Below, one piece after another: positions 2,926-19,983 of a DNA stretch of 64,000 nucleotides. How positions within the stretch are numbered: the stretch's first letter is position 1; each line of letters opens with the position of its first letter. Both the position numbers and the translations under genes were made by a program. The notes under the pieces are model-generated. The model did no database searches. It was not told the origin of the DNA and worked only from the letters and a program-made list of their open reading frames with translations. Source of the DNA: Sphingobacteriales bacterium 50-39 (GTDB lineage: Bacteria; Bacteroidota; Bacteroidia; Chitinophagales; Chitinophagaceae); assembly GCA_001898505.1 (NCBI GenBank), contig MKTZ01000027.1:124001-188000 (forward strand), in the 5' to 3' direction.

Positions 2926-4938
2926 TTAGGAGGCTGTAAGACTACGTGTGAGCTCCAAAGGATGATATTCCGGTCCGGCGGCGTCCGAAGGGGTTTTGGG
3001 CGATTCGACAAAATACATATCCACCTCCCCTATGTTCTTGGCAAAGATCTTGCCCCGGTAGGTACAATTATAGATATCCTTCACCCGCTCATAAGCAGCT
3101 GCCGAAATATTCACTTTCCCCGGCTCCCCATTGCTTTCCATCCTGCTGGCAATATTTACCGTGCTGCCCCAGATGTCATAGGCGTACTTTTTCCTGCCTA
3201 CGACGCCCGCTACCACAGGGCCGACGTTGATCCCGACCCTTAAGTCCCAGGGCGTCTGACCCAAGGCAATCTTCTTTTTATTACGATCGCGGATAAACTG
3301 CTGTATCTCCAGGCTGGCCTCTATCATTCTCGCCGGGTGAGAATCATCCGATGTAGGTATGCCTCCCGCGCACATATAGGAGTCTCCGATGGTCTTTATC
3401 TTTTCCAGCTGATATTTTTCAATGATCTCATCGAATGCATTGAAACACGCATTGAGCTCGGATACCACTTCCTGAGGTGTAAGCGTCTCTGCTATCATGG
3501 AGAAGCTCTTGAAGTCCGTAAACAACACGGATACGTTCTCATAGTATCTTGGCTCCGCCTTGCCGCTTGTCTGCAATTCTTTCGCCACTTCCACGGGCAG
3601 GATATTCAATAGCAGCCGCTCGATCTCTGCCTTCTGGCTGTCGAGCAGCCGATTTGTCCGGATCTTTGTCCGATAGTCGCGGTATATGATCAATACAATG
3701 ATGAATACCAGGATCAGTCCGGCAATCAATGCATTCCTGGTGACCCTTTGTCTTTTCAGAGTGAGGTCCTGCAGGGCCTTATCTTTGGTGAGCAGGTCGA
3801 TCTGCGATTGTTTTTTCTGAATGTCGAAATTGAACTGGAGACCCGACAGTTTCTTGTCCGTATCGATATTATATAAGCTGTCTTTCAGATCGGTGAGCTT
3901 TGACTGGTATCGATAGGCATTGACATAGTCGCCGCTGCGTGCATAGGAGAGGGCCAATCCGGCGCAGGCATTTTTCAGCTCATAGTTTACGGAACTTAGC
4001 TGCTCTGCAATGACAACGGCTTTCCGGTAATATTCAATGGCTTTTTGGAGGCCACCCTGCTCCAGATATGTATCAGCCATCCCGATAAGGGATTGCGCCA
4101 TGTACAATGTCGTATTTAATTTTCGGGCTATTTCAAAAGCCTGCTGATGATAGTGGATGGCGTTGGCATAGTCCTTTCTTATGGCATATACTTTACCGAT
4201 GTCGTTCAGGGGATAGGGCGTATAAGAGGAGTCTGAACCCCGAAGGGCTTCGAGGGACTTTTCAAAATAAGAAAGAGCCAAGCTGTCATTTCCCCTGGTC
4301 AGGTAAATCTCTCCTATGTTGACCTCGACGTTCCCGATGGCTTCCTTATTCCCGGCGGCCAGGCAGAATGGATAGGCGCGCTGGTAATATTCCAGGGCCT
4401 TATCCAGGGTTGAAGCCTTATTGGAATATACGGCGCCGATGTTCTGCAGCACTGTCGCTATCCGAATGGTATCGGCGGTTTCCTCCGCAATTTTCAGGGC
4501 CTTTAAATAGAGCTCCAGGGCCCTTGCATCGTCGGATTTATTGTAATAGGCCGCGCCCTCGTTGCTCAGGATATTGGCCATACCCACCTTGTCGCCAATG
4601 GCGGTGAACAAGGCCAGGGACTTTTCCCAGTTTTCAAGCGCCTCCAAGTATTTCCCGCCCTTGGAATAGGCGTTACCGATGTTCTTGAATGCATAGGCGC
4701 TGCCTTTCTGGTAGTGTAGTCTTTCCGAAAGCCCCCTGGCTGAATCTGCATAGTTAATGGCATGCAGGGGGTCTACGCTCAAATAAGCTCTGCTAAGCGC
4801 CAACAGGCTATTTACTTTTGCCGTATCGTCCTTTTCGGCGCCCAGCATATTTCGAATGCTGTCTATTTCCGAATGTTGGGCGATACCCTTTGTGGCGATC
4901 AGTAAACAGATAAGGAGGAGACCTTTATTTAATTTCAT
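2926..4938 (-). CDS. TPR-sensor class III adenylate cyclase
   Basis: A 670-residue predicted membrane-anchored adenylate cyclase that makes cAMP from ATP. Order: signal peptide (1-20), about seven TPR-like repeats (40-350), coiled coil, one membrane helix (403-420), linker (425-455) and the class III catalytic domain (465-645). Metal-binding Asp475 (VLFTDF) and Asp519 (KTIGDS) are present. The adenine-specificity pair of mammalian-type cyclases is kept: Lys515 in KIKTIGD and Asp588 in YDIWG. The transition-state residues Asn595 and Arg599 (TVNIASRM) are also present, so it should be active and ATP-specific. The TPR part would face the periplasm. Start at 4938 is chosen because its ATG overlaps the TGA of the giant gene upstream (ATGA) and gives a signal peptide. 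Translational coupling with that secreted protein suggests a functional link. Confidence 0.9.
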   Translation of the reverse strand: MKLNKGLLLICLLIATKGIAQHSEIDSIRNMLGAEKDDTAKVNSLLALSRAYLSVDPLHAINYADSARGLSERLHYQKGSAYAFKNIGNAYSKGGKYLEALENWEKSLALFTAIGDKVGMANILSNEGAAYYNKSDDARALELYLKALKIAEETADTIRIATVLQNIGAVYSNKASTLDKALEYYQRAYPFCLAAGNKEAIGNVEVNIGEIYLTRGNDSLALSYFEKSLEALRGSDSSYTPYPLNDIGKVYAIRKDYANAIHYHQQAFEIARKLNTTLYMAQSLIGMADTYLEQGGLQKAIEYYRKAVVIAEQLSSVNYELKNACAGLALSYARSGDYVNAYRYQSKLTDLKDSLYNIDTDKKLSGLQFNFDIQKKQSQIDLLTKDKALQDLTLKRQRVTRNALIAGLILVFIIVLIIYRDYRTKIRTNRLLDSQKAEIERLLLNILPVEVAKELQTSGKAEPRYYENVSVLFTDFKSFSMIAETLTPQEVVSELNACFNAFDEIIEKYQLEKIKTIGDSYMCAGGIPTSDDSHPARMIEASLEIQQFIRDRNKKKIALGQTPWDLRVGINVGPVVAGVVGRKKYAYDIWGSTVNIASRMESNGEPGKVNISAAAYERVKDIYNCTYRGKIFAKNIGEVDMYFVESPKTPSDAAGPEYHPLELTRSLTAS

Positions 4939-7900
4939 AGTTTTATCAATTGGAATACACTGAGTGTATTTCCCGTTCTGACTTTGATCCAATACAAACC
5001 GTTGTTCAGATTGCTGATATCGAGCTGGAGGTCGCTCATGCCAGTCCTTCTGACCGCGGCCGGATGACAAGCCCTTCCCTGCACATCGAGAATCATTAAG
5101 CCCTCTTCCGACACAGGCTGACCATCCACATGCACATTCACCGTATTGGTTGCCGGATTCGGATAGAGGAGCGTCTTCATATTTGTCGCAAGGCCGGCCT
5201 GTCCTGTCAAAGTATTGACGGTCGTAACAGACGAGGTGGTTTTCTTTGCCGGACAGCGTCCCGAGGTCGAGCTGGCCGTGCTGGCCACCGAGGACTTTTG
5301 ATTTCCGTTGAAGCTGATGACGGTCCATATCAGTTTGTTGCCGTCGAAGGGAATATCGAAATTACCTGTTCCGGGCAGGAACAGCACCGGAGGCGTGCCG
5401 AAAAATGCTGTTCCACTGAGGTTGTTGTTAACACCGATGGGTATATATACCGGGACGGAATTGCTGTTGGTATAGGTAAAGTGCGCCACGTATCGGAGCC
5501 CCGTCGGGCTGCCGATCAAGGTATCCACGCAATTCAGGCTGGGCTTGATATTCTTGGCTCCACTGCCGTCGGGGTCCACATACAGCGGACCCGGGACATA
5601 ACTAATAGTATAGTTATTCGGGATGGTCAGCTTTAACGCGCTGGGGATGATGGAATATACTCCCGCTGCTCCGGTATAGGAGGGGCTAAGGGTAAATACC
5701 GGTCCGGATACAATGGTGCTTTGGTCATTGTTTACAAATCCTGTATAAGTGGCGGTAAATACAGGCAAGGGGCTGCCCTGGATGATGAACTGGGTGTCTG
5801 CCTTGACAGTGAGTGGCAAGGGAGCAACGGATAATTTTCCAGTGATATACTTCAGCGTATAGCTGGTAGGTTGCTTCAGCTCGAGGCCCGAGGGGACGAC
5901 CTTATAGAGCCCGGCAGGCGTCGTGACTCCCTGTATCACCACTACGTTATTGCTATCGAGCAGTGTATAAGTGGGGGCGCCGGTGAATACCGAATCCGGT
6001 CGATCGCCATACTGGTAGCCTGAAATGACAGATGTGAGGGTGGGTGCTGTGCCGTAGTTTGTATGTACGCTGTCAGCCCGAACCGTCAGTGTGTCCGGAT
6101 GGATTGTCAATGTCCCGAGTCCGTAGGTAACGATGAAATTGCCGCTGATGAATGCCCCGGGGGCGATGGTCTGCACTCCTGCCGTAAACCCGGTGATCAG
6201 GTTCATCGGATAGAAGGTGTTGAGCGTCACCGATGACGAGGTAAGGTCCGATTGGTTGACGATGATAGCGACATTGCTATGGGTGGAGTCGCCGATGCTG
6301 GTGCTGTTGATGAGGGCGCTGCCGTTGATGAGGGCGTTGCCATTGATCAGCGCACTTCCGTTGATCAGGGCGCTGGCGTTGATGAGCGCACTGGCATTGA
6401 TCAGGGCATTCCCATTGATCAGGGCGCTAGCCGAAGCCAGGTTCGTAACAGCGGGATTAGTTTCATAGTTAATGAGGCAGGTAGGGGATACCAGCGTCAG
6501 CATGGTGGTGTCGGCGCCGGGTACGCCATTGATCAGTGCATTTCCATTGATCAGCGCGCTGCCCCTGCTGAGCGTTCCGACACTGGCCACGATCCCCACG
6601 TTATTCAAGCCTGCATTGATCAAGGCACTTCCGTTGATCAGCGCGCTGGCATCCATGAGCGCGAGGGTATTGGCCAGCTGGCTGGTGTAGGCAATTTGTA
6701 TCGAATCGAGGAAGTGGGGGCGATCTGCCGGCGCTATGAGGGAATCTTTATAAATGAACCGGTAGTTGAAACCTCCAATCTTATCTCCGTAGGTAAGGGT
6801 GGTATCGCGGGGAATAATGGTCAATGGCATCCGGTTGATCGTCAGGACGCCCTGGTTGAAAACGTAGTTAAACGTTTCGGTCAGGCCGATGTCGAAGGAA
6901 TCTTTCGGATTGAGCGTGCGCATCGATGGTTTGATCACATACAATCCAACATTGCTCATGTTGACAGCGGGTGTGGAATAGAAAATGCTATCGAGACCCA
7001 ACTGGTGCAGGGTATAGGTGGTTTGCTGGATGGGTACGCTGTCAATCAGGATCTGCGCGGTGAAGACAGGGAGCTGTTCGCCGTAATTTTTCGATTTATT
7101 ATCGGCGGTGATGGTGACGATCTTCTTTACACGGGAGAAGAAGGTCAATGTATCCGAATAGCCGCCATCGCCGGCGCTGTTGCTGATGGGGGCAGTATAT
7201 ACCTGTATGGCGGGATTACCCGTGAAGGTGGGGACGGAAGCCGTCGCCTGGGTGCTGCTTACGACCGTTGTTGGAAGAGGCGTACCCCGCATGGTAACAA
7301 CCGAGGTAGAGTCGAGGTAATTGCCGTTGACCGTTACCGTAAAGGGTGCGGCGCCCGGTACCGTGGTGGTATCGGGCAATCCCAGACTGTTGATCACCGG
7401 CGTGGGCGTTGCGAAAGAGCGCATGGCTGCGGCGGGTTGTATGAACCCATAGCCCGTAGCATAGTCGAAGCCCGGGGTATTCATGTCGAGGGCTGTACTC
7501 CGCATGAGGTACCGGAGACTGTCCGGTGAAAGGGTCTGCCCGGTGAATTTTTTCTTTCCTTCCAGCAGCAAAGCCGCCACGCCGGCTGCGTGGGGAGCAG
7601 CTGCCGAGGTCCCGAAGAAATTCGGGAAGGCATCTCCGTCGATGTTGGCGCCGCCCAGGTTCACCGTGGTATTGACTCCGTTGGGTGCGGTAAAGTCGGG
7701 TTTCTGTCTGACGATGCCGTTTACAGGTGTGCCGCCCCAGGAGGAGAAGGATGCGATAGTGGGCGGATTGACGCCATATGCCGGAGTATTCTTATACAAT
7801 ACTGCTCCGACCGTCATGGCTCCTGCCGCATTGGCCTGGCCTATGATGGTAGAGTTTCCGGAATTATACTGGCTGACAACGCCGTTGCCCCGGAAGAAAA

Positions 7901-10400
7901 CATATTTGAAATTGACCGGTCCCGAACCGGCGGCCCTAACGATGATGATATTGGTTTGGGTATTCTGTGTTACGGTGAAGGGTAATACTTCGATGGGATC
8001 GCCACCAAGATTATTCCTGTTGAAACCAAATAAAGTATTCCCGCCATTGTCCGTTAAATAAATATCGAGATCATTGGTGGTGCCGGTGGAAGTTTGGCCC
8101 AGCGAATAGATGGAGTCCTGCCATTGCAATACGATTGTATAAACGCCGGGCGTCAGGGTGATGGTCTGGAAGATATTTCCTCCGCCGAAATTATGGGCTG
8201 ATCCGACTATTCCGGCGGGAGCCGGCGCGGCAACAAAATTATTCTGATAGGACTGGTTACCGAAGTTCCCTGCCGCGGAGAAATAGGATACACCCTGGGC
8301 GGCTGCTGCATTGACCGCCCTGGCAACCACGCCGTCCTGGTAGAAAGGCTCGGTGATATAGGTAACATCGTCCACGATGATATTGCAGGAGTCCTGTTGC
8401 AGCTGTTGTATGCCCTGAGCGAAATCCCCTGCGCTGATAAATCCCGTCCTGAAAGCCAGCTTTGCCGCGGGTGCAATATCGTGCACGATCTGCAACATAG
8501 CCCGGCCTTCATCCGTCTGAGGTCCGAAAGGATATTCCTGCAGCACATCTACCGGTGTCGGATAAGTGGGATTACCTATACCCGGAAGGTCGCCATTCAG
8601 TACGTCCGTCTGTGCGGGATTGCCGGTGACTGTATTATAGCTGTTGGAGATCACGCCTACCTTCGAACCTCGACCTGAAATGTTATAGCCGTTGCGAACA
8701 AGGTAAGAACGCATGGCAGTATCCCCCTGGGTAGTTACTATCCCTACATTGCCTAATGGCGGATAAAGGGGTCTGCAGTAATTGATGAGGGTAGGGAGGC
8801 TGTCCAGTTTCAGCAGGTGTGCGATGGGATATTGACCCGTGATGATCAGGGAACCGGGGCCGTTGTTGATCGGATTGGTCAGGCCATAGGCAGTTGTTTG
8901 GAGCAGGGACAATAATGTCTGGACCTGTCCAGTGCGGGCGATAACTTCGATCATTACACTGTCATGGTTCAGGATAAAGATGGCCTTGGCGGAGTCGTTG
9001 ACAAACCCGAAGTTCTGATAGAGAGAGTTCAACTCGGAGCCGATGAGGTTGTTGACCTTGCCGGGTGCCGGAGGCGGGTAATAGGGCAGGACACAACGGA
9101 TAGCCGTCACGATAGCCGTATCGGTGGCAAAGCATCCACCGTTGGGGTCGGTGACTTGTAGTATATAAGTTCCGCCAGCATTCACCAATGGAGTGGCTGT
9201 GTTGGCGCCTGAGACGATATGTCCTCCACCCGTGGCTGTCCAGTTGAAGCTGACATTGGGGGAGGTAGATGAACCGCTGAGCGTGGTTGTTGGGTTGGAG
9301 CAATCGATCTGTTGGTCAGGGCCGGCGTTGGCATTGGGTGTTGTACAAATTATATAGGGGGCATAATTTATGGTGGCCCCGCTTTGCATAACTACCTGTG
9401 TGGCGCTCCACAATGCTCCTGTGATGGAGGTGGAACCCGATCCCGAACCGATGTTTATACCAGCATAGGGCGCCCATACGGTGCCCAACCATCTTGAATT
9501 GGTGTTACCTGTACCGTTGGCGATGGTCCAGGCTGCATTCCCCGTGGGAGAGGTAGCCCCGGAACCATGTGTTTCGGCAAATATGCGTGTCGGGTCGCCG
9601 CCGTTGGCAGTAGCGGCGCTGATCTTGCTCAAGTTGGCATCTCCGTAGATATAGATCTTAAAACTCCCGGTGGCCGCATTTTTGAAATCGAAGGTGAACG
9701 TATTGTTGCCTGCGTTTGTAATGGACTTGAACACATAGACGCCCGGTCCGGAGAAAGTGAGGGTTTTGTTCCCCCCCAGTGTCAAATCACCGTAAGAGCC
9801 GGGAGTGATGGTCTGGGTATTGTTGATCGTGGTAGTGCCTACCGCGGGAAAGCTGGTTATCGAAGGCAGCTGCGGGAGTATGGGAAAGACCGGGGTGGCG
9901 ACTATATTTCCGCCAGCCGGTGTGGGTCCGGTGTATGTCGTGCCGGATGGATGCGTGGCGGAGCCGGAGACCATGCCTCCTCCTACGAAGATATTTCCAT
10001 TGGCCAGTATATTACCTTTTAGTATGGCGCCGGTGCCAGTCGAAATAATATTGCCTGTCGATGCTTTTGTGTTGGCAGCGCTCATTATGCCCTGTACGGT
10101 ATTGCTGCTTGACAGCAGGATCGTGCCGCCGGAATAGATGTTAGCATTGATGGACGAGCTACCGGTGGTGGTGACAAGCGTATAACTACCTATACTACCC
10201 GTAGAACTACCTATGGGGTTAGCCAGTATGCTGGTAGACGAACCCAATTGGACGGAGCCACTGCCGCCGAACAATACGAAATCCGTTATTTTCAATTGTT
10301 GACCTAAACTGCATAGCGGGGTCATGACACAGAAAAGGGCAATGAATAACATTCCATTACCTTTCCCCGTCAAGCTTTTGAATGAGGGAGGAGTTAGCAT
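4935..10400 (-). CDS. Giant secreted DUF3494 / S53-like protease / MBG-repeat protein with T9SS sorting domain
   Basis: An 1821-residue surface or secreted protein. Order: signal peptide (to about 34), DUF3494 ice-binding-like beta-solenoid (35-350), PKD/Ig-like domain (355-435), subtilase-fold protease (575-985), IPT-like domain (1000-1085), MBG-type beta domains (1095-1570) interrupted by eleven xALIN hexapeptides (1252-1366), and a Por-type C-terminal sorting domain (from LLYPNPATNTVNVHV to the end) for export by type IX secretion. The protease has the nucleophile motif GTSAAAP (Ser932) and SAAGN, but the usual His region reads TDEGRAMLQI with Glu631, as in S53-like sedolisin relatives, and the canonical first Asp is replaced (VGVISNSYN). 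It may be a noncanonical protease or a dead binding domain. The TGA overlaps the ATG of the adenylate cyclase. Confidence 0.88.
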   Translation of the reverse strand: MLTPPSFKSLTGKGNGMLFIALFCVMTPLCSLGQQLKITDFVLFGGSGSVQLGSSTSILANPIGSSTGSIGSYTLVTTTGSSSINANIYSGGTILLSSSNTVQGIMSAANTKASTGNIISTGTGAILKGNILANGNIFVGGGMVSGSATHPSGTTYTGPTPAGGNIVATPVFPILPQLPSITSFPAVGTTTINNTQTITPGSYGDLTLGGNKTLTFSGPGVYVFKSITNAGNNTFTFDFKNAATGSFKIYIYGDANLSKISAATANGGDPTRIFAETHGSGATSPTGNAAWTIANGTGNTNSRWLGTVWAPYAGINIGSGSGSTSITGALWSATQVVMQSGATINYAPYIICTTPNANAGPDQQIDCSNPTTTLSGSSTSPNVSFNWTATGGGHIVSGANTATPLVNAGGTYILQVTDPNGGCFATDTAIVTAIRCVLPYYPPPAPGKVNNLIGSELNSLYQNFGFVNDSAKAIFILNHDSVMIEVIARTGQVQTLLSLLQTTAYGLTNPINNGPGSLIITGQYPIAHLLKLDSLPTLINYCRPLYPPLGNVGIVTTQGDTAMRSYLVRNGYNISGRGSKVGVISNSYNTVTGNPAQTDVLNGDLPGIGNPTYPTPVDVLQEYPFGPQTDEGRAMLQIVHDIAPAAKLAFRTGFISAGDFAQGIQQLQQDSCNIIVDDVTYITEPFYQDGVVARAVNAAAAQGVSYFSAAGNFGNQSYQNNFVAAPAPAGIVGSAHNFGGGNIFQTITLTPGVYTIVLQWQDSIYSLGQTSTGTTNDLDIYLTDNGGNTLFGFNRNNLGGDPIEVLPFTVTQNTQTNIIIVRAAGSGPVNFKYVFFRGNGVVSQYNSGNSTIIGQANAAGAMTVGAVLYKNTPAYGVNPPTIASFSSWGGTPVNGIVRQKPDFTAPNGVNTTVNLGGANIDGDAFPNFFGTSAAAPHAAGVAALLLEGKKKFTGQTLSPDSLRYLMRSTALDMNTPGFDYATGYGFIQPAAAMRSFATPTPVINSLGLPDTTTVPGAAPFTVTVNGNYLDSTSVVTMRGTPLPTTVVSSTQATASVPTFTGNPAIQVYTAPISNSAGDGGYSDTLTFFSRVKKIVTITADNKSKNYGEQLPVFTAQILIDSVPIQQTTYTLHQLGLDSIFYSTPAVNMSNVGLYVIKPSMRTLNPKDSFDIGLTETFNYVFNQGVLTINRMPLTIIPRDTTLTYGDKIGGFNYRFIYKDSLIAPADRPHFLDSIQIAYTSQLANTLALMDASALINGSALINAGLNNVGIVASVGTLSRGSALINGNALINGVPGADTTMLTLVSPTCLINYETNPAVTNLASASALINGNALINASALINASALINGSALINGNALINGSALINSTSIGDSTHSNVAIIVNQSDLTSSSVTLNTFYPMNLITGFTAGVQTIAPGAFISGNFIVTYGLGTLTIHPDTLTVRADSVHTNYGTAPTLTSVISGYQYGDRPDSVFTGAPTYTLLDSNNVVVIQGVTTPAGLYKVVPSGLELKQPTSYTLKYITGKLSVAPLPLTVKADTQFIIQGSPLPVFTATYTGFVNNDQSTIVSGPVFTLSPSYTGAAGVYSIIPSALKLTIPNNYTISYVPGPLYVDPDGSGAKNIKPSLNCVDTLIGSPTGLRYVAHFTYTNSNSVPVYIPIGVNNNLSGTAFFGTPPVLFLPGTGNFDIPFDGNKLIWTVISFNGNQKSSVASTASSTSGRCPAKKTTSSVTTVNTLTGQAGLATNMKTLLYPNPATNTVNVHVDGQPVSEEGLMILDVQGRACHPAAVRRTGMSDLQLDISNLNNGLYWIKVRTGNTLSVFQLIKL
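6303..6647 (-). repeat. Coding hexapeptide repeat [S/N]ALIN[G/A/S], 11 copies in three blocks
   Basis: Blocks of 18-bp units at 6303-6428 (7 copies), 6525-6560 (2) and 6612-6647 (2), each encoding Ser/Asn-Ala-Leu-Ile-Asn-Gly/Ala/Ser. They sit inside the MBG region of the giant secreted protein. Units are near-identical in DNA (core TTGATCAG/TTGATGAG), so copy number may vary by slippage or recombination. Confidence 0.9.
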
Positions 10401-10760
10401 AGCCTGGTTTTATTATTGGTCACCAGTGTGGAAAGCACTTATACCGCGAGTTTTGATAAGGGAGGGGATTAGGGGTTATGTAAAAAATATTGATCAGAGA
10501 TGGAAATGAGTTGGATAGATCGACCGGATAATTGGACAGAAAGGAGAAATAGGATAATCCTATAAAATGGTCAAATTGAAATGCTTCCCAAGTTACTCTT
10601 TTGTTGAAAATAAATGAAATATATTTTGGCGCTGAGATGCGAGGTCCCTATATTTATTATCGAAAGAACATCTTATGAAAAGCGACATCCGACTCCCCTC
10701 ATATACTCATTTCGGAGGATTGTAAGAATCATCCGCGAACCAAAGAGACGAATCAATCGG

Positions 10761-13499
10761 ATGAAAAAAAAGCTACCCCACATCCTGAATATCAAGGCGT
10801 CAGAGTCAGGCCAGGTCTTCGATCTGCTGGTTGTACAATTTTTTATCGGCCTTGCGAATGCCCTCGTAAACATCGTAGCCTTTACTCTTTTTATATACAA
10901 TATTTCCATTCAATTCCTGCCGCTGGCTTATATGGTAATTGCAGGATTATTGATCCTACTCAATATTATTTATGAGAAAATAGAGCACCGGTTCTCCCCC
11001 TTGCAACTGCTTAAGATCGTCATTGCCGCATCGGCCATCCTTCTGATCCCTGTGTGGTTCGGGCTGACCTTTTTCAATAAGAACGATTTTATTTTTATTC
11101 TTTTGGTATGGAGTATCCTGATCTATATGGCGACGGGATATGCTTTCTGGGGACTGGTGTCGCTACTGTTCAATATCCGGGAAAGCAAACGGGTCTTTTC
11201 TGTAGCGGGGGCGGGGGATATTCCTGCCAAACTGATCGGATATCTTGCGGCCCCGGTCCTGATCCACTTTCTAGGAGTGGTCAACCTGATCTGGTTTTCC
11301 GTGATCTCGCTGGTCACCGGGTTCTTTTTATTCACGAAAATGACACGGAAGAAGAACTGGGACAAGATCAGGGCCAGGTCTCATGTCCACAAGCACCAGG
11401 AGACTGTCAAACAACAAAAGCGGGACCTTATCGGCTTTTTCTTCAAGGCGAGGCTGATATTCTTTATCTCTATCCTTTCGCTGTTGAGCTATAATGTCTT
11501 CAACCTGGTGGACTATACCTTTCTTTCACAGGTAAAGCTACGGTATGAGAGCCTTTCGTCGCTTGCAGCTTTTATCGCCATTTTTTTTGCGATGGGACGA
11601 TTGATAGCCATCGTGCTGAAACTGCTGTTCACGAGCCGCATGATCGAGCGGCTGGGTATCGTGTCCTGCCTGTTCATTACCCCCATCTTTCTATGTGTAG
11701 CCTGTCTCGTTTTCTTCCTGTTTGGAGAAAAGACGAACTATAATGTGTATATATTCGGGATGATGGCCTTGTTGACCGAAGTATTGAGGCTGACCATTCA
11801 GGAACCAGTTTTCTTTATTCTTTTTCAGCCCTTGAAGGAGCACCTTCGTCTGAAGGGGCATATGATCTCCAAAGGCTATATGCTTCCCCCGTCGTTGCTG
11901 GTAGTGGGGCTGACGTTATTCCTGATGAACAAAGCGGGGATTCCCATCACGATCCTGCTCACCATAAAAATATTGTTGCTTAACCTGGTCGTGTGGGGGA
12001 TCATTATTTTCTTCATCGGGCAATCTTATAGAAAAACAATCCATAACTCTATTAAGAAAGGGATGTTCCATGGCGGAGATGGTTTTCGGTATGATGAAGA
12101 TACCATTGCCATGCTGCTCGGAAAAGTCAAGGAGGGCAAGGAGCTGGAGGTGATCTATGCGCTGAACCTGCTGGAGAAGGCCAATTATCCTCATTTTCGG
12201 CGTGTGCTGGAGGAGCAACTGGGGAATGGCCGGAAGGACATAAAGAAATATGCGCTGGAACGGCTCGAAGCAAACGGAGCAATAGATACTGCGCTCCTTC
12301 ACCAGCTGTTGCAAACGGAAGTGGATATGGAAGTAAAGGAAAAGATGTTTGCGCTGCTATGCAGGCATGACCCCGCATTCCTGCAAAAAGTTTCCGGTGA
12401 TATGGACAATTATGAGCCGGGCATCCGGAAGATAATTATTATCAGTTTGTTGAACCAGACGGAATTCAGCTATCTCCACCTGGCGGGGAATGCGATCGAA
12501 AGCCTGCTCTGCTCCACTCATCCTGCGGACCGGATGCTGGCGCTCAGTATTATCGGCGAGGTAAAGCATGTAAAGTTCACGCATGCCATCGAGAGCCTGA
12601 TCGGTGATCCCGATACGCCGGTGAAAAGAAATGCGATCTCCACCGCCTGCAAGCTGAAGATCAAGCGGCTCCTTCCTGTGGTCATACGTTTGTTGCACCG
12701 TCCGGCAGACCGATACCTGGTCTTAAAAGGATTACAGCAATACGGGGACAATCTTTTTGTCGATGTGCAGGACCTGAATAAGGACCTGTTGAATGCTCAT
12801 ACTGACGACTTGATAAAGCTGGCTGCCAAGATCAACGGACCACATTCCACCCGCTTCCTCTTATCCGTGCTGAAGGGGTCGTCCGGGCCTGTCGAGAAGA
12901 TCTTGCATGCCTTGTGGATAAAGGCGTATGAGCCGACAACTTCAGACGAGGTGCAACAATTACGGCTGGTGCTGGATACCTACCTGAAGAACGGGACGAA
13001 TAAGATCCTTGATTTTTATTCCCTTCCGGATGCCCGGGAAGATGACTTGCTGCAGAGCGCCGTCCGGAGCGAGATCAAGATGGACCTGATCAATTCACTC
13101 AAAGCCTGTTCCATACTGTTTGGGAAAAAGGAGATCAACCGGGTCCTTGAGCTATTAGAAATGGGCCATGATGAAAAACTGTACAATGGTATGGAAATGC
13201 TGGACCTTGTTCTACCAAAGAAGATCGCCTCGGGTGTCAATCATCTGTTCGATTTTGTGCTGGATCCGTCACATACCAAGAAAACGGTTCCCCGGCGTGA
13301 GCTGTATGTCTTTTTTAATAAGCTGTTTTTCGGGGATGAGGGATCGTATAATCCCTGGACAAAAGCGATTTGTGTATATTGTTCCTGGAAAAATAATGAA
13401 TCGGGGCTTTACGGCCGATTGCGTCAGATCCCTGATCCGACAGAGCACCATATTATTTCGGAAACGAGGGATTATGTTATGAATCTTGTAAAACAATAG
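10761..13499 (+). CDS. MFS/NTT-like multi-pass transporter fused to HEAT repeats
   Basis: A 912-residue inner-membrane protein. Residues about 20-450 carry roughly twelve hydrophobic helices with a layout like nucleotide transporter (NTT/ADP-ATP translocase)-related major facilitator proteins. Residues about 465-900 are soluble and helical with HEAT-like repeats (for example EVIYALNLLEKANYPHFRRV). In related proteins I know, this layout continues into a cyclic-nucleotide-binding domain; here that domain is a separate ORF starting 6 bp downstream. The ATG at 10761 (MKKKLPHIL) is preferred over an in-frame ATG at 10614, which would add 49 charged residues without similarity to anything recognised. 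Substrate unknown; the NTT assignment is an inference from architecture. Confidence 0.75.
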   Translation: MKKKLPHILNIKASESGQVFDLLVVQFFIGLANALVNIVAFTLFIYNISIQFLPLAYMVIAGLLILLNIIYEKIEHRFSPLQLLKIVIAASAILLIPVWFGLTFFNKNDFIFILLVWSILIYMATGYAFWGLVSLLFNIRESKRVFSVAGAGDIPAKLIGYLAAPVLIHFLGVVNLIWFSVISLVTGFFLFTKMTRKKNWDKIRARSHVHKHQETVKQQKRDLIGFFFKARLIFFISILSLLSYNVFNLVDYTFLSQVKLRYESLSSLAAFIAIFFAMGRLIAIVLKLLFTSRMIERLGIVSCLFITPIFLCVACLVFFLFGEKTNYNVYIFGMMALLTEVLRLTIQEPVFFILFQPLKEHLRLKGHMISKGYMLPPSLLVVGLTLFLMNKAGIPITILLTIKILLLNLVVWGIIIFFIGQSYRKTIHNSIKKGMFHGGDGFRYDEDTIAMLLGKVKEGKELEVIYALNLLEKANYPHFRRVLEEQLGNGRKDIKKYALERLEANGAIDTALLHQLLQTEVDMEVKEKMFALLCRHDPAFLQKVSGDMDNYEPGIRKIIIISLLNQTEFSYLHLAGNAIESLLCSTHPADRMLALSIIGEVKHVKFTHAIESLIGDPDTPVKRNAISTACKLKIKRLLPVVIRLLHRPADRYLVLKGLQQYGDNLFVDVQDLNKDLLNAHTDDLIKLAAKINGPHSTRFLLSVLKGSSGPVEKILHALWIKAYEPTTSDEVQQLRLVLDTYLKNGTNKILDFYSLPDAREDDLLQSAVRSEIKMDLINSLKACSILFGKKEINRVLELLEMGHDEKLYNGMEMLDLVLPKKIASGVNHLFDFVLDPSHTKKTVPRRELYVFFNKLFFGDEGSYNPWTKAICVYCSWKNNESGLYGRLRQIPDPTEHHIISETRDYVMNLVKQ

Positions 13500-13505
13500 C
13501 TTACC

Positions 13506-13958
13506 ATGCTGCTGATCGAAAAAATATTGTTGCTTAAGAATTCGGATATTTTCAAATACTGCAAGGAGACGGACCTTATGGATATCGCTTCCATATGCAA
13601 TGAAAATCATGTCGAACAGGGGGTGACTATTTTCAGTAAGGGAGACCCGGGTAACTGCATGTATTTCATTTATTCAGGGAAAGTCTCCATTCATGACGAG
13701 GAGCATCCTCTGGCGATGCTCTCGGATAACGAGATCTTCGGGGAGTTGTCCGTGCTGGATTCCGAACCAAGGTCTGCCAGCGCCACTACTCTTTCGGATT
13801 GCATATTGCTGGAGATAGAACAAGAAGCCTTCTATGATGTAATGGCCACCAATCCCGATATACTGAAAGGGATTATGCGCACCTTGTGCAAGAGGCTGCG
13901 GGAGCAGGACCGGGTGACGGTGGAAATGCAAAAGATCGTTCAGGAAAGAAAGCTGTAA
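13506..13958 (+). CDS. Stand-alone cyclic-nucleotide-binding domain protein
   Basis: A 150-residue cytoplasmic protein consisting of a CNB domain without a DNA-binding domain. The phosphate-binding cassette is intact: FGELSVLDSEPRSASA supplies Glu80 (ribose 2'-OH) and Arg89 (cyclic phosphate), so cAMP or cGMP binding is likely. The gene starts 6 bp after the transporter-HEAT gene and should be co-transcribed and act with it, for instance as its ligand-gated regulatory subunit. The adenylate cyclase 6 kb away could supply the ligand. It converges on the HD hydrolase gene, whose stop lies 6 bp away inside a shared palindrome. Confidence 0.85.
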   Translation: MLLIEKILLLKNSDIFKYCKETDLMDIASICNENHVEQGVTIFSKGDPGNCMYFIYSGKVSIHDEEHPLAMLSDNEIFGELSVLDSEPRSASATTLSDCILLEIEQEAFYDVMATNPDILKGIMRTLCKRLREQDRVTVEMQKIVQERKL

Positions 13959-13970
13959 CGGCTGTTACAG
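13953..13970. repeat. Palindrome containing both convergent stop codons
   Basis: CTGTAAC-GGCT-GTTACAG, a perfect 7-bp inverted repeat. Its left arm holds the TAA of the CNB gene and its right arm the TAA of the HD gene on the other strand. There is no T-run; it may still act as a compact bidirectional terminator or 3'-end stabiliser. Confidence 0.55.
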
Positions 13971-14534
13971 TAATTGCTGATAGTTATGTTGTTTGAGCGG
14001 CTCACGCAGCCGTTGTGAGGAGGCGGTGTGGTAGCGGTGATTTTTAAGAAACTGGAGTTGCAGTCTCTCCCAGTCCTGGTCGTCTTTGACTATGTGATAG
14101 TGCAGGAATTCCTGTTTCAGCCTTGCTCCGATGTCAAGGAAGTCGGATCTACCCAGATAATCGAGGTCTGCATCGCAAATAATCCTCTCGAGGAGTGTAG
14201 AGGGCTTCTGCGGCACGCGTGTAGCCATGATCAGGGCCTTTACGGAGTCCTTTTCCGCATCAGTCAGACCGAAATGAACAGCATCACGCATAAAGATCTC
14301 ACAACTCCTCTCTTCGTGGCCGGCATAGGTCTCCAGGAAGCCGGTGTCGTGATACAAGGCGGCAACTTTGAGCAGGAATAGGTCCCCGTCCCCGGAGATG
14401 CCTTCTTCCGCTGCAATCCGTTCAGACTCACGCACTACATCGAGTGTGTGGTCAACGCTGTGATAGGTTAGGTGGGGGCTGAGGCCTTCCAGGGCTTTAA
14501 GCACCCGTGTTCTTATTTGATCAAGTTTTCTCAT
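13965..14534 (-). CDS. HD-domain phosphohydrolase
   Basis: A 189-residue metal-dependent HD hydrolase. The metal ligands are visible: His29 in YHSVDHT, the His62-Asp63 pair in ALYHDTGF, a further His at 73 and Asp in ICDADLDYLG. This spacing is shared with the HD family that cleaves nucleotides or cyclic (di)nucleotides; the substrate is unknown. The ATG at 14534 is chosen; a TTG at 14555 would add seven residues. It converges tail to tail with the CNB gene. A link to nucleotide signalling in this neighbourhood is only an inference. Confidence 0.85.
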   Translation of the reverse strand: MRKLDQIRTRVLKALEGLSPHLTYHSVDHTLDVVRESERIAAEEGISGDGDLFLLKVAALYHDTGFLETYAGHEERSCEIFMRDAVHFGLTDAEKDSVKALIMATRVPQKPSTLLERIICDADLDYLGRSDFLDIGARLKQEFLHYHIVKDDQDWERLQLQFLKNHRYHTASSQRLREPLKQHNYQQLL

Positions 14535-14594
14535 CCATGCCTGTTCGTTAGACAATGCGGAGAGTTCCTCCCGTTACAAGTTCTAAGATACACA

Positions 14595-14661: not shown

Positions 14662-17600
14662 ATGAATCCTCATTACCTTGTGGCTTTTTATATCAAACGC
14701 CGTCTTCACGCCTGTGTTTTTCTTTTTGTCAACCTATTTTTAATTCAAACTGTTCTGGCCCAACCTTCCATCAATTCCTTTTCTCCATCTTCGGGGCCGA
14801 TGGGAACGGCGGTCACCATTAGCGGTACTAATTTCAGCGCCATCCCGTCTGCCAATATCGTTTATTTTGGAGCGGCAAGGGCTACTGTATTGACGGCCAG
14901 CGCTACCTCTCTTTCTGTGGCGGCCCCCGCAACGGCTACTTATCAGCCCATTACCGTCACCGTTAACGGTTTGACGGCAAGTTCCGCGAGGCCCTTTATT
15001 GTTACGTTTGCGGGGGGTGGGAATATTATAGCACCCTCTTTTGCAGCCAGACTTGATTTTGCGACGGATCTGCACCCTGAAGTGCTGGTTGCGGCGGACT
15101 TTGACGGGGACGGGAAGACGGACCTGGCCAGTTCCAATTACTACAATAGCGGCGGCCCTTCGGCCTCGATATCCGTATTAAGGAATACCGGCACAGCAGG
15201 TACGATCGACTTTGCGCCGCGGGTAGACCTGACGGCTAAAACATATACCTTTGGCCTTGCCGCCGGCGATCTGAACGGGGATGGGAAACCGGACCTGGCC
15301 GCCACCAGCAGCAGCGGAACTCAAACAGTCAGCGTTTTCCTCAATACCAGTTCCCCAGGCGTGATCAGCTTTGCTTCTAAAGTGGATTATGCCACCGGCA
15401 CCAGCCCGGCAGGTGTCGCGATAGCTGACGTCGATGGAGATGGCAGGCTGGACCTCATTGTCGCCGATTTTCTGTCGGGCACCGTTTCCCTTTTTCAAAA
15501 TACGAGTTCGGGCAGCGCCCTTTCTTTTGCCCCGAAAGTGGACGTGGCAACCGGGCAGGGCCCCTATAATGTTGCCATGGGCGACCTGGATGGGGATGGC
15601 AAGCCGGACCTGGCGGTGACGAACAGTTTATCCCGTACCATGTCCATCTTTCTGAACACGGGGCATCCCGGTACTATTGCTTTTGCGGGGAAGGTGGATA
15701 TAGCTACTACATCAGGGTCCGACGAGCCCAATAGTATCGCTATCGCCGACCTGGACGGAGACGGCAAGCCGGATCTCGTCATCGGCAATAATAATATCAA
15801 CAGCCTGAATGCGTCGGTGAATGCTTTTGCCGTCTTTCGGAACACCTGCAGTATTGGCACTGTGTCCTTCGGCCCGCCCGTAAACTATTATTCGGGCAAT
15901 GCCGGTAATATCTCTGTCGGTGACCTGAACGGGGATGGTAAACCAGATCTGATGATCCCGGGCTTCGTAAATCCCAATGGGATCAATGTCTATCAAAATA
16001 CTTCCGTGCCGGGTACGATATCTCTTTCAAACCCTGTCGGTTATGCGGAGGTAATCCCTTACGGTCCGGTGATTGCCGACCTGGATGGGGATGGCAGGCC
16101 TGACCTGGCCATAGGTACAGCCAAAAATACCGCAGCTGTTTTCAGGAATAAGCTCACGGAGCCCAGCATTATTCAATTCAATCCGATGACGGCGGCCGCT
16201 GCGGCGACAGTCACCATTACCGGCGTCAATCTAATGGGCGTGACCAAAGTAAGTTTCGGAGGCACGCCTGCCGCCTCTTTCACTGTTGTCTCTGACACGC
16301 GGATCGATGCGGTGGTCGGAACGGGGAGGTCCGGGGATGTTGCCGTGACCGGCCCAAAAGGTAGCGGATCAATGCCGGGATTTGTCTTTGCCGGTGCGCC
16401 GGTGATCACTTCCTTCTTCCCTGCCTCTGCAAAGAGTGGAGATACAGTAACGCTCGTCGGAGCTAATTTCTCCGGGGCATATGATGTCAAGTTCGGAGGA
16501 ACGGAAGCTCATACGATGACCGTTGTTTCGCCAGATACTGTCATTGCCGTAGTCGGAGCCGGGATCTCGGGTAGCGTCAGTATTACGACTCCTTATGGTA
16601 CAGCGTCGTTGCCCGGGTTCGCCTATATACCCATACCGGAGGTCAATGCCTTTTCTCCTCTCTATGCGGGCCCGGGGCAAGTGGTAAAAATATTCGGCGC
16701 CCATTTAACCGGCGCTACAGCGGTCAGTTTTGGCGGGGTGGCCGCGAGCTCTTTTACTGTTCTTGGGGACTCCACGCTCTCCGCCGTCGTTGGACAGGGG
16801 GCATCCGGCAGCGTTACGGTGACCACGCCGTTCGGCCAGGCATCCGTGGCAGGGTTTACGTATTATCCTCCTCCTGTCATCCAATCCTTTAGTCCTTCGT
16901 CCGGCTTTCATGGGGTAAAGCTTACGATCACAGGCGCCAATTTCGCGGATGCCACCGGGGTCACCGTCGGAGGAGTGGATTATAGCGGGTCCTTTACGAT
17001 AGTTTCGCCGAATACCATTACCCTGACCTTGAATTACCTGGGGGCTTCCGGCAGTATCGTAGTATATACCCGGTGGGGTACGGATTCTATACCCGGCTTT
17101 ATTTTTTATAAGAATCCGGAAGTGAGCGCCATATCACCTGGTATAGCGGGGCCGGGGATGACGGTGACCATCACCGGGAAAGAGTTCACGCGGATCAGTT
17201 CCGTCACGCTGGGAGGTGTGCCGGTGCGATCTTTTACGGTGGTATCGCCGGATACGATCACCGCCATTGTCGATACGGGCGCTACCGGCTTTGTGGCTGT
17301 GACCAATCCTGCAGGTTCCAATATCAACCAGGGTCCTCCATTCATCTTTACTCTCAGACCTCTCATCTCCTCCTATTTCCCCTTATCGGGGCCAGTGGGC
17401 ACTGTCGTGTCCATTTGGGGGTCGAATTTCGATAATAACGATGTTGTTTATATCGGCGGTGTCAAGGCAACGATCCTGTCCGCCAACCCCGGAATGTTGA
17501 AAGTGGCAGTTCCTTCGGGAGCGGGGTATGGTCCGCTGACAGTGACCTCTCCCACCATAGGGCTCACGGGGTACAGTAATATTCCCTTCAATGTCACATT

Positions 17601-19983
17601 CCCGGTGGACACAAGCGCCTTCAATCCGACATCATTTGCAGGTCACCGTGAGTTTGCCACCGGTATCAAGCCCACCGATGCAGCTGTCGGTGATGTCGAC
17701 GGGGATGGCAAGCCGGACCTGGTAGTGGTCAATTTTCAGTCCAGTTCGGTGTCGATATACCGCAACACGAGCAAGCCCGCTCAATTGTCCCTTGCCCCCC
17801 GGATAGATCTTTCGACAGGAAGACAGGGCGCCAGGAGTATTGCTCTGGCGGATATGGATGGCGATGGCAGGTTGGATATCGTGGTGGGCATGGGGCAGGA
17901 TGTCAATGGGGGTGGCGTCGGTACGGGGCTCGTTATTTTCAGGAACATCGGTGCGGTAGGAAATCTGCAGTTTCACCGGGTGAACATCAAGGGTTATTAT
18001 AGAAATGACTTTATGGTCGTAGGTGACCTGGATGGAGACGGGAAGCCAGATGTCGCTGGTGCGGATCAAACGGTGTGCATTAGCTGTTACAACGCATACG
18101 CCAATATTTCTATTTATAGAAATACTACAACGAGTGGGGGCATCTCTTTTGAAGAATTTCCCCAGGGCTTAAATTCTAATAGTGCCGGCACAAGTATTAC
18201 GATGTTGGGAATGGCTTTGGGGGATTTGAATGGTGATGGAATGCCGGAGATCGCAATAGGCACCAATAGAGGAGGTTATGTTCTCGTTTTAAAAAATACC
18301 AGCCGGGCTGACGGCATTTATATGAACAGTATGACCTACGGGGATGCCTCGCGTGAATATAGTTCTAACTATATGGCAAGCCCGTCGATAGCCGATCTCG
18401 ATGGGGATGGGTATCCTGATATTATTACCTCGGGTGAAGTTATCAGGAACCTGGGAGGGCTCCAATTCCAAAGTCAGTCTACCAATTGGATTGGTGGATC
18501 GAACGTTCCGGCGGATCTGAACGGAGACGGGCTCCCTGATATCGCATATTGTTCCATCGATGGGGTGGGGCGATCTTCAGGAAGCAAGCTTTCCCTATTT
18601 AAGAATACCAGCACGCCGGGGGCGGTGGGCCTTGCGGCCGGCATGGATTACCCTGCGCTACCGTCCTCCAAGAAGATACAGACCGCGGACCTGGACGGAG
18701 ACGGGAAACCGGATATCGTCGTCACCAACCAGGAAGTCAATTCCATCTCTATCTTCCGCAACCGTACCGGTGAGCCCTTGCCGCCTGCGCCCGCCATCCT
18801 CTCATTCACGCCCGACAGCGGCAGCTATGCCACCCATGTAACGATCACGGGTACCGGCTTTACCCAAGTTACGGCTGTCAGCTTTGGAGGAGTACCCGCT
18901 GCCTCCTTCCGGATCGTTGGGTCGGATACGATCATCGCTGTCGTGGATTCCGGCGCCACGGGTTTGGTGAGCGTCACGATGCCCGGGGGCACGGGGACAC
19001 TACCCGGCTTCGTATATAATGACACCCACCTGCCGATCATCAGTGTTGTTTCACCTGCCGTCGCTGCGGCCGGCACGACTATTACCCTCACCGGACTTAA
19101 TTTAGCCGGTGCAACGTCGGTGCGCTTTGGTCAAAAGGATGCATCTTACTTTACGGTGGCATCCTCTGCCGGCATCACCGCGGTGTTGGATTCCGCTACC
19201 TCGGATACCATCTTCGTGACGACACCCCTGGGTACCAGCTGGATCACCGGGTTCACCTTTATACCTACTCCGGGCATCACGGCGGGGGATACGGTTTTTT
19301 GTCAAGGCTCCCCTTTGCTGCTGACTTCTTCCGCCGACACCGGTAATCGATGGTACCGGAACAGTATCCCCATTCCAGGGGCTGTCGCTGATACCCTGCT
19401 GGTCAATTCTAATGGCGCCTACACCGTGACGACTACCGTACTGGGAGTGGCTTCCGACACCTCCCGGGTGTTCAACGTGACCTTCCGTCCCCGTCCCGCC
19501 ACGCCGACCATTACCCTTAATGCCAGCAATGAGCTGGTCTCTTCTGTTGCTGTAGGCAACCAGTGGTATCAGGATACTGTCACTGCGATCGCAGGCGCCA
19601 CGGACCAGGTTTTCAAGCCCACCGCCTCGGGTAATTATTCCGTTGTCATCATCCAGGATGGCTGCCCGAGCGCCTTTTCGGATATACGATCCTTCCTGGT
19701 GACGGCTGTCGGCAATGTCAGCGGACCCGACAATTTTGTGCAGTTCGCGCCGAACCCGGTATGGAATTATATCACGGTCAGTTTTGACGGGCTGACGGTT
19801 GGCGCACCTGTATTGACGGTGGAGGTATTCAATATGGAAGGCCAGCGGGTACAGCTCAACCCTGCTATTCATAATGGGGACAGGATCGACTTGTCGGGAT
19901 TACCAAAAGGATCGTATATCCTGAAAGCCCTGAGCCACAAAAATGAAGTGAAGGCGATGGTGAAGATCCTGAAGTTGCAATAA
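14662..19983 (+). CDS. Giant secreted FG-GAP/VCBS and IPT/TIG repeat protein with T9SS sorting domain
   Basis: A 1773-residue surface protein. After a signal peptide ending near LIQTVLAQ come one IPT/TIG domain (34-113), a first FG-GAP/VCBS block (128-500), six IPT/TIG domains (505-985), a second FG-GAP block (about 1000-1365), two IPT/TIG domains (1375-1535), Ig-like linkers, and a Por-type C-terminal sorting domain (from FAPNPVWNYITVSF). I count fourteen DxDGDGxxD-type loops, seven in each FG-GAP block, which are Ca2+-binding and form beta-propeller blades. This fits a type IX-exported adhesin or matrix protein. The ATG lies 36 bp after a good promoter. It ends directly against the NTF2-like gene on the other strand, with no spacer. 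Confidence 0.9.
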   Translation: MNPHYLVAFYIKRRLHACVFLFVNLFLIQTVLAQPSINSFSPSSGPMGTAVTISGTNFSAIPSANIVYFGAARATVLTASATSLSVAAPATATYQPITVTVNGLTASSARPFIVTFAGGGNIIAPSFAARLDFATDLHPEVLVAADFDGDGKTDLASSNYYNSGGPSASISVLRNTGTAGTIDFAPRVDLTAKTYTFGLAAGDLNGDGKPDLAATSSSGTQTVSVFLNTSSPGVISFASKVDYATGTSPAGVAIADVDGDGRLDLIVADFLSGTVSLFQNTSSGSALSFAPKVDVATGQGPYNVAMGDLDGDGKPDLAVTNSLSRTMSIFLNTGHPGTIAFAGKVDIATTSGSDEPNSIAIADLDGDGKPDLVIGNNNINSLNASVNAFAVFRNTCSIGTVSFGPPVNYYSGNAGNISVGDLNGDGKPDLMIPGFVNPNGINVYQNTSVPGTISLSNPVGYAEVIPYGPVIADLDGDGRPDLAIGTAKNTAAVFRNKLTEPSIIQFNPMTAAAAATVTITGVNLMGVTKVSFGGTPAASFTVVSDTRIDAVVGTGRSGDVAVTGPKGSGSMPGFVFAGAPVITSFFPASAKSGDTVTLVGANFSGAYDVKFGGTEAHTMTVVSPDTVIAVVGAGISGSVSITTPYGTASLPGFAYIPIPEVNAFSPLYAGPGQVVKIFGAHLTGATAVSFGGVAASSFTVLGDSTLSAVVGQGASGSVTVTTPFGQASVAGFTYYPPPVIQSFSPSSGFHGVKLTITGANFADATGVTVGGVDYSGSFTIVSPNTITLTLNYLGASGSIVVYTRWGTDSIPGFIFYKNPEVSAISPGIAGPGMTVTITGKEFTRISSVTLGGVPVRSFTVVSPDTITAIVDTGATGFVAVTNPAGSNINQGPPFIFTLRPLISSYFPLSGPVGTVVSIWGSNFDNNDVVYIGGVKATILSANPGMLKVAVPSGAGYGPLTVTSPTIGLTGYSNIPFNVTFPVDTSAFNPTSFAGHREFATGIKPTDAAVGDVDGDGKPDLVVVNFQSSSVSIYRNTSKPAQLSLAPRIDLSTGRQGARSIALADMDGDGRLDIVVGMGQDVNGGGVGTGLVIFRNIGAVGNLQFHRVNIKGYYRNDFMVVGDLDGDGKPDVAGADQTVCISCYNAYANISIYRNTTTSGGISFEEFPQGLNSNSAGTSITMLGMALGDLNGDGMPEIAIGTNRGGYVLVLKNTSRADGIYMNSMTYGDASREYSSNYMASPSIADLDGDGYPDIITSGEVIRNLGGLQFQSQSTNWIGGSNVPADLNGDGLPDIAYCSIDGVGRSSGSKLSLFKNTSTPGAVGLAAGMDYPALPSSKKIQTADLDGDGKPDIVVTNQEVNSISIFRNRTGEPLPPAPAILSFTPDSGSYATHVTITGTGFTQVTAVSFGGVPAASFRIVGSDTIIAVVDSGATGLVSVTMPGGTGTLPGFVYNDTHLPIISVVSPAVAAAGTTITLTGLNLAGATSVRFGQKDASYFTVASSAGITAVLDSATSDTIFVTTPLGTSWITGFTFIPTPGITAGDTVFCQGSPLLLTSSADTGNRWYRNSIPIPGAVADTLLVNSNGAYTVTTTVLGVASDTSRVFNVTFRPRPATPTITLNASNELVSSVAVGNQWYQDTVTAIAGATDQVFKPTASGNYSVVIIQDGCPSAFSDIRSFLVTAVGNVSGPDNFVQFAPNPVWNYITVSFDGLTVGAPVLTVEVFNMEGQRVQLNPAIHNGDRIDLSGLPKGSYILKALSHKNEVKAMVKILKLQ

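Follow-up and report, generated by a model that had tools for sequence, protein, structure and literature searches.

A conserved gene pair of a predicted type IX cargo and a TPR receptor in several orders of Bacteroidota

Does a bacterial cell listen to a protein that it exports itself? The question is raised by two genes on the minus strand of the window, a stretch of 64,000 nucleotides from Sphingobacteriales bacterium 50-39. An earlier note on this DNA reported that the stop of the first gene overlaps the start of the second, and this can be read directly. TCAT on the plus strand at 4935-4938 is ATGA on the minus strand. The TGA that ends an open reading frame of 1821 aa (10400..4935) is shared with the ATG that starts one of 670 aa (4938..2926). 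The pair and its parts are as follows.

4935..10400, minus strand: giant type IX secretion system (T9SS) cargo, 1821 aa (profile matches)
7341..9110, minus strand: prodomain and subtilisin-like domain with a beta-rich insertion, residues 431-1020 of the giant (alignment, model and structure search)
4959..5168, minus strand: T9SS type A sorting domain, residues 1745-1814 of the giant (profile matches)
4935..4938, minus strand: ATGA overlap of the giant gene's stop with the TPR-cyclase gene's start (sequence; not kept in relatives)
2926..4938, minus strand: TPR receptor adenylate cyclase, 670 aa (domain matches, alignment and model)
3868..4878, minus strand: predicted periplasmic TPR ectodomain, residues 21-357 of the receptor (domain matches and model)
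3676..3735, minus strand: transmembrane segment, residues 402-421, inside a continuous predicted helix 358-446 (by eye from hydrophobicity; model)
3004..3546, minus strand: class III cyclase domain, residues 465-645, catalytic residues intact (profile match and alignment)

The overlap had been taken as a sign that the two proteins are translationally coupled. We reject this as a conserved feature. In 77 relatives the two genes are separated by a median gap of 73 nt (at most 200 nt in 72 of them), and none has a clear ATGA at the junction. A single relative has a negative gap, and there an alternative start at +37 suits the signal peptide better. The overlap is therefore peculiar to this genome. 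ATGA overlaps are common in bacteria, and since this one is also not conserved it is no evidence by itself. The evidence is the conserved adjacency of the giant and receptor genes.

Giants were drawn from 58 relatives, then from a wider family sample and a scan of named genomes, and the flanking genes were mapped. With duplicates, short homologues and contig ends left out there are 94 giants with assembled downstream sequence, the window's included. A homologous TPR receptor lies downstream on the same strand in 82 of them. The conservation that the earlier note proposed to look for in other Chitinophagaceae thus reaches well beyond one order. The pair is found in Chitinophagales, Sphingobacteriales, Cytophagales and Bacteroidales. 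Its carriers include Flavihumibacter, Cnuella, Ginsengibacter, Ilyomonas, Solitalea, Daejeonella and Chryseolinea, along with metagenome-assembled genomes named Cyclobacteriaceae, Bacteroidales, Prolixibacteraceae and Lentimicrobiaceae. Genes intervene in just three of the 82 pairs: a second T9SS protein in G071 and L225, and three opposite-strand genes in L256. Twelve giants have no downstream receptor. Some of their genomes hold another, paired copy, and the twelve include G013, where the cyclase is elsewhere, and G043, where it stands behind another T9SS protein. Within the set of 58 genomes the full-length giant and the full-length cyclase are present in the same six. Shorter relatives of the subtilisin-like part (about 840 aa) also occur, in same-genus genomes that lack the cyclase pair (G002, G007, G009, G012, G016 and G031; loci L068-L071, L073 and L074).

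The downstream protein fits what was said of it, a predicted membrane adenylate cyclase with a putative TPR sensor. It has a signal peptide, TPR repeats, one transmembrane helix and a class III cyclase domain (PF00211, 3.8e-52), and its TPR part is predicted to be periplasmic. No other class III cyclase was found in the genome. The claim of a complete ATP-specific active site is also borne out. The two metal Asp, the adenine-specifying Lys and Asp and the transition-state Asn and Arg are covered by D475, K515, D519, D588, N595 and R599, and all six are invariant across 49 complete aligned sequences. Because of this invariance cAMP production is predicted. The receptor model (mean pLDDT 86.5) has a TPR solenoid, a single helix 358-446 through the membrane and the cyclase domain; as modelled, the helix joins the solenoid to the cyclase. 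With a strongly conserved pair and a cyclase predicted to be active, the genomic results leave standing the link that was proposed between the two proteins.

The giant is predicted to be exported by the type IX system, as had been claimed. It has a signal peptide (by eye), its C-terminus matches Por_Secre_tail (9.3e-12) and TIGR04183 (2.8e-9), and the translocon protein SprA is encoded in the same genome (2457 bits). After the signal peptide come an N-terminal domain with a weak likeness to ice-binding-like adhesive domains, Ig/PKD, the prodomain and subtilisin-like domain (Peptidase_S8, 1.1e-18), MBG_2 domains, SALING repeats and the sorting tail. The SALING/NALING short repeats, at residues about 1240-1400, have only weak beta-helix Pfam matches and are probably a beta-solenoid.

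The subtilisin-like domain is not mentioned in the earlier note. Its model (mean pLDDT 83) contains the beta-rich insertion. It has the subtilisin fold, aligning to many subtilisins by VIA-align with Z of about 30-32 and rmsd of 2.5-2.9 over 250-285 residues. The canonical Asp-His-Ser triad of the S8 subtilases is absent across the 52-54 aligned sequences, in a register set by motif and not by residue-level structural alignment. Ser932 is invariant (54/54), the His position is Glu631 (52/52) and the catalytic Asp position is Ser585. The next residue is D586 in 42 of 52 sequences and Asn in the window giant. With Glu in place of His, a shifted Asp and Asn in the window, catalysis is doubtful. 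By sequence the giant is possibly a pseudoprotease, and a binding or signalling role of this domain is possible. Sedolisins (S53) use a Glu-x-x-x-Asp motif plus Ser. The giant has Glu631 and Ser932, but the residue four on is Met635 rather than Asp. S53 chains are absent from the VIA list of this domain, an absence that excludes nothing.

What the receptors' upstream neighbours share is the T9SS tail. A sorting domain was found in 61 of 61 scanned C-termini, most of them from giants and the rest from other neighbours directly upstream of a receptor. None of the 19 testable TPR paralogues that are unlinked to a giant has a T9SS-tail gene just upstream. There are three complete cases of another upstream partner. 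In G071 and L225 the scan detected no tail on the subtilisin-like giant, and a second, tail-bearing protein stands directly before the receptor. In G043 the tail-bearing partner is a 565-aa LTD/Calx-beta protein. G255, G386 and G392 were considered as further cases of non-subtilisin partners and then set aside: their contigs stop within the upstream ORFs, and a subtilisin-like part may have been cut away. It must be added that the giant is seemingly split in L142 (of G071), L225 and L253, with a tail-less subtilisin-like half followed by a second large secreted protein. This second protein is of lectin/HYR type in L142, and L253 runs off its contig.

The receptor's output is a different matter. 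Of the 82 linked receptors, 69 carry at their C-terminus a class III cyclase whose active site is intact, and 13 were counted as histidine-kinase type, a version that the earlier note had not noticed. These 13 keep the TPR and transmembrane parts without a cyclase domain, and a kinase is seen wherever the sequence is complete enough; in two of them the contig stops ahead of the output domain or inside it. A tree of the TPR and transmembrane parts places linked receptors of both kinds in one clade (SH-aLRT 99) with the paralogues outside, though the receptor trees are quick trees in which some outgroup branches are long. A tree of the ectodomain alone needs five changes of the kinase label, and at least four are forced by starred branches. 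A single origin of the kinase form is rejected (single kinase clade, p-AU 5.6e-6). Read from these sequences, evolution has kept cargo and ectodomain together and exchanged the output repeatedly. An ectodomain that stays beside the giant while its output is swapped fits what would be expected of a receptor that senses its partner. In L138, L223, L239 and L262 a second histidine kinase gene (447-467 aa) directly follows the TPR-kinase. Its product appears membrane-bound judging by the N-terminus, and its kinase domain shares about 65% identity with the kinase domains of the TPR-kinases.

If the receptor makes cAMP, where might the signal go? The locus itself probably encodes part of the pathway, in three genes on the far side of the giant that the earlier note did not mention.

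10614..13499, plus strand: NTT/MFS-HEAT membrane protein, divergent from the giant (profile matches and homologue alignment)
13506..13958, plus strand: stand-alone cyclic-nucleotide-binding domain (cNBD) protein, 150 aa, 6 nt after the NTT-HEAT gene (profile match)
13965..14555, minus strand: HD-domain phosphohydrolase-like protein, convergent with the cNBD gene (profile match)

The NTT-HEAT gene matches MFS_1 (1.9e-7), with matches under the cut-off to TIGR00769 (weak, 2.9e-9) and HEAT_2 (9.6e-4). Its true start may be near 10761, because homologues align from about residue 49. The cNBD gene matches cNMP_binding (3.1e-22), and the two together form an NTT-HEAT and cNBD cassette. The genome has 38 cyclic-nucleotide-binding-domain matches against its one class III cyclase, and the best of the 38 is in this locus. 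NTT-HEAT, cNBD and HD genes often flank cyclase-type loci. Flavihumibacter fluminis (L264) has HD, NTT-HEAT, cNBD, giant and cyclase in that order on one strand. There is one copy of the NTT-HEAT gene per genome, and in 23 of 28 genomes it is no more than 5 kb away from the pair. It is present in 30 of 40 cyclase-clade genomes versus 22 of 354 others (Fisher, p=1e-22), and in 28 of 37 cyclase-linked versus one of nine kinase-linked cases (Fisher, p=7e-4), kinase lineages being few. These p-values overstate the evidence since Fisher tests ignore shared ancestry.

On balance we think that the locus is a conserved Bacteroidota module which pairs a T9SS-exported surface giant with a dedicated inner-membrane TPR receptor for signalling. 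Gene order, domain architecture, the intact cyclase site, the exchangeable output and the linkage of cAMP-related genes are direct observations. The contact between giant and receptor, and its direction, we infer. The periplasmic solenoid would recognise the giant itself, the sorting tail, some fragment, or the protein as it crosses the periplasm. The long continuous helix would carry a change across the inner membrane and alter cyclase activity. The cAMP could then act on the cNBD protein encoded beside NTT-HEAT and probably also on CRP-type regulators, and the HD protein may end the signal. In other lineages a histidine kinase would take the cyclase's place, driven by the same pair of receptor and cargo. 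A receptor in the inner membrane has no direct access to a giant anchored at the surface. What it could sense is limited to transit, a fragment that stays behind or an intermediary. This problem of topology has also been stated for PorA and PorY (PMC7712824). The sequences suggest that cells may listen to a protein that they export themselves. A bolder version is that the T9SS cargo is the cognate ligand of the TPR receptor across the phylum, with cAMP or phosphotransfer as output, and that cAMP gates the NTT-HEAT/cNBD protein of the same locus. This we put forward tentatively, with more doubt than belief.

One could picture the two genes as co-expressed and nothing else. The TPR domain would then sense another periplasmic cue, such as envelope stress, peptidoglycan or a small peptide, and cAMP would feed back on the operon, giant included. 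An operon alone would explain same-strand adjacency, and the signal of FimS, the closest studied TPR sensor kinase, is unknown (PMC11053733); the ectodomain here resembles that of FimS (1.9e-28). However, co-expression does not predict that the output is swapped while cargo and ectodomain stay paired. Nor does it predict a T9SS-tail gene before the receptor even where the subtilisin-like part has been split off or replaced. We consider it unlikely, but the strongest of the rivals. In another scenario the receptor senses the T9SS route itself, through sorting tails on their way out or cargo that piles up, and the giant just marks the locus of a general sensor of secretion load. The upstream partners in G071, L225 and G043 share the tail and not the subtilisin-like domain, and in P. 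gingivalis the CTD protein PorA acts upstream of the kinase PorY (PMC7712824). Yet a genome with 52 T9SS-tail matches would have no need to keep one giant beside a general sensor, and the partners' tails are divergent, with a mean column identity of 27%. We find this scenario improbable.

The least credible scenario is that there is no functional link and that the genes are neighbours by chance or through joint horizontal transfer. It was disfavoured already, and we give it almost no credence. The pair is patchy, being present in four of 33 genomes of its own genus, which suggests block transfer or loss. However, the adjacency holds in several orders, between which ectodomain identity is about 40-55%, and the single-copy NTT-HEAT gene stays close by. 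Chance adjacency is rejected by the spread of the pair, by the paralogues with no tail gene upstream and by the NTT-HEAT linkage.

A dedicated giant-receptor module has partial precedents. In P. gingivalis a T9SS tail protein is genetically upstream of an inner-membrane sensor in the PorXY-SigP system, where no direct contact has been shown (PMC7712824). PorA has 246 aa, is confined to Porphyromonas and feeds a histidine kinase and an ECF sigma factor (PMC7712824). In contrast, the cargo here is a subtilisin-like giant whose gene adjoins that of a TPR cyclase. FimS has a periplasmic TPR ectodomain, a transmembrane segment and a cytoplasmic output (PMC11053733), and our kinase-type receptors have the same plan. 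The FimS family model (NF053520) has a cut-off of 600 bits, which both the window protein (99 bits) and a kinase-type homologue (109 bits) miss, and the receptors here mostly have cyclase output and a conserved cargo partner. Other class III adenylate cyclases with sensory domains share the catalytic domain and all active-site residues; what sets the receptor here apart is its TPR ectodomain and the secreted partner linked to it.

The Csp proteins of clostridial spores (CspA, CspB and CspC) have a prodomain and a subtilase domain with a beta-barrel insertion, and CspC and CspA are catalytically degenerate and act in signalling (PMC6636752). They are the top Foldseek matches of the giant's domain and share its prodomain, fold and insertion. 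Identity is only 13-16% with TM 0.45-0.55, and by VIA-align other subtilisins do equally well. Csp proteins are not known as T9SS exports or with a TPR receptor. The arrangement seen in the window, where a cyclic-nucleotide-binding gene comes directly after a transporter-HEAT gene, has been described (PMC5381601). There cAMP from an adenylate cyclase was only speculated on, whereas here a specific cyclase gene is linked.

In the literature searched, mostly outside subscription journals, we found no description of a cyclase-T9SS pair and no class III cyclase with both a TPR ectodomain and a conserved secreted partner. Little was found there on the roles of cAMP in Bacteroidota or on the cues of periplasmic TPR sensors. 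The finding is larger than the earlier note stated. It is a variant of signalling from a secreted protein to a membrane sensor, with a cAMP branch that can be tested. The locus brings together a candidate ligand, the T9SS cargo, its candidate receptor and possible effectors, and through it the published speculation on NTT-HEAT/cNBD and cAMP (PMC5381601) becomes directly testable. It also extends the PorA-PorY idea of an exported protein that reports back to the cell. If the bolder version is true, secretion-coupled cAMP signalling would run from surface to cytoplasm across the phylum.

Two other ORFs of the window may be mentioned. Just past the HD gene, at 14662-19983 on the plus strand, there is another giant of 1773 aa that also has a T9SS tail (match G000:C27:143750). 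At 2-2206 on the minus strand a large ORF crosses the window edge and by eye resembles an RND/CusA-type efflux transporter.
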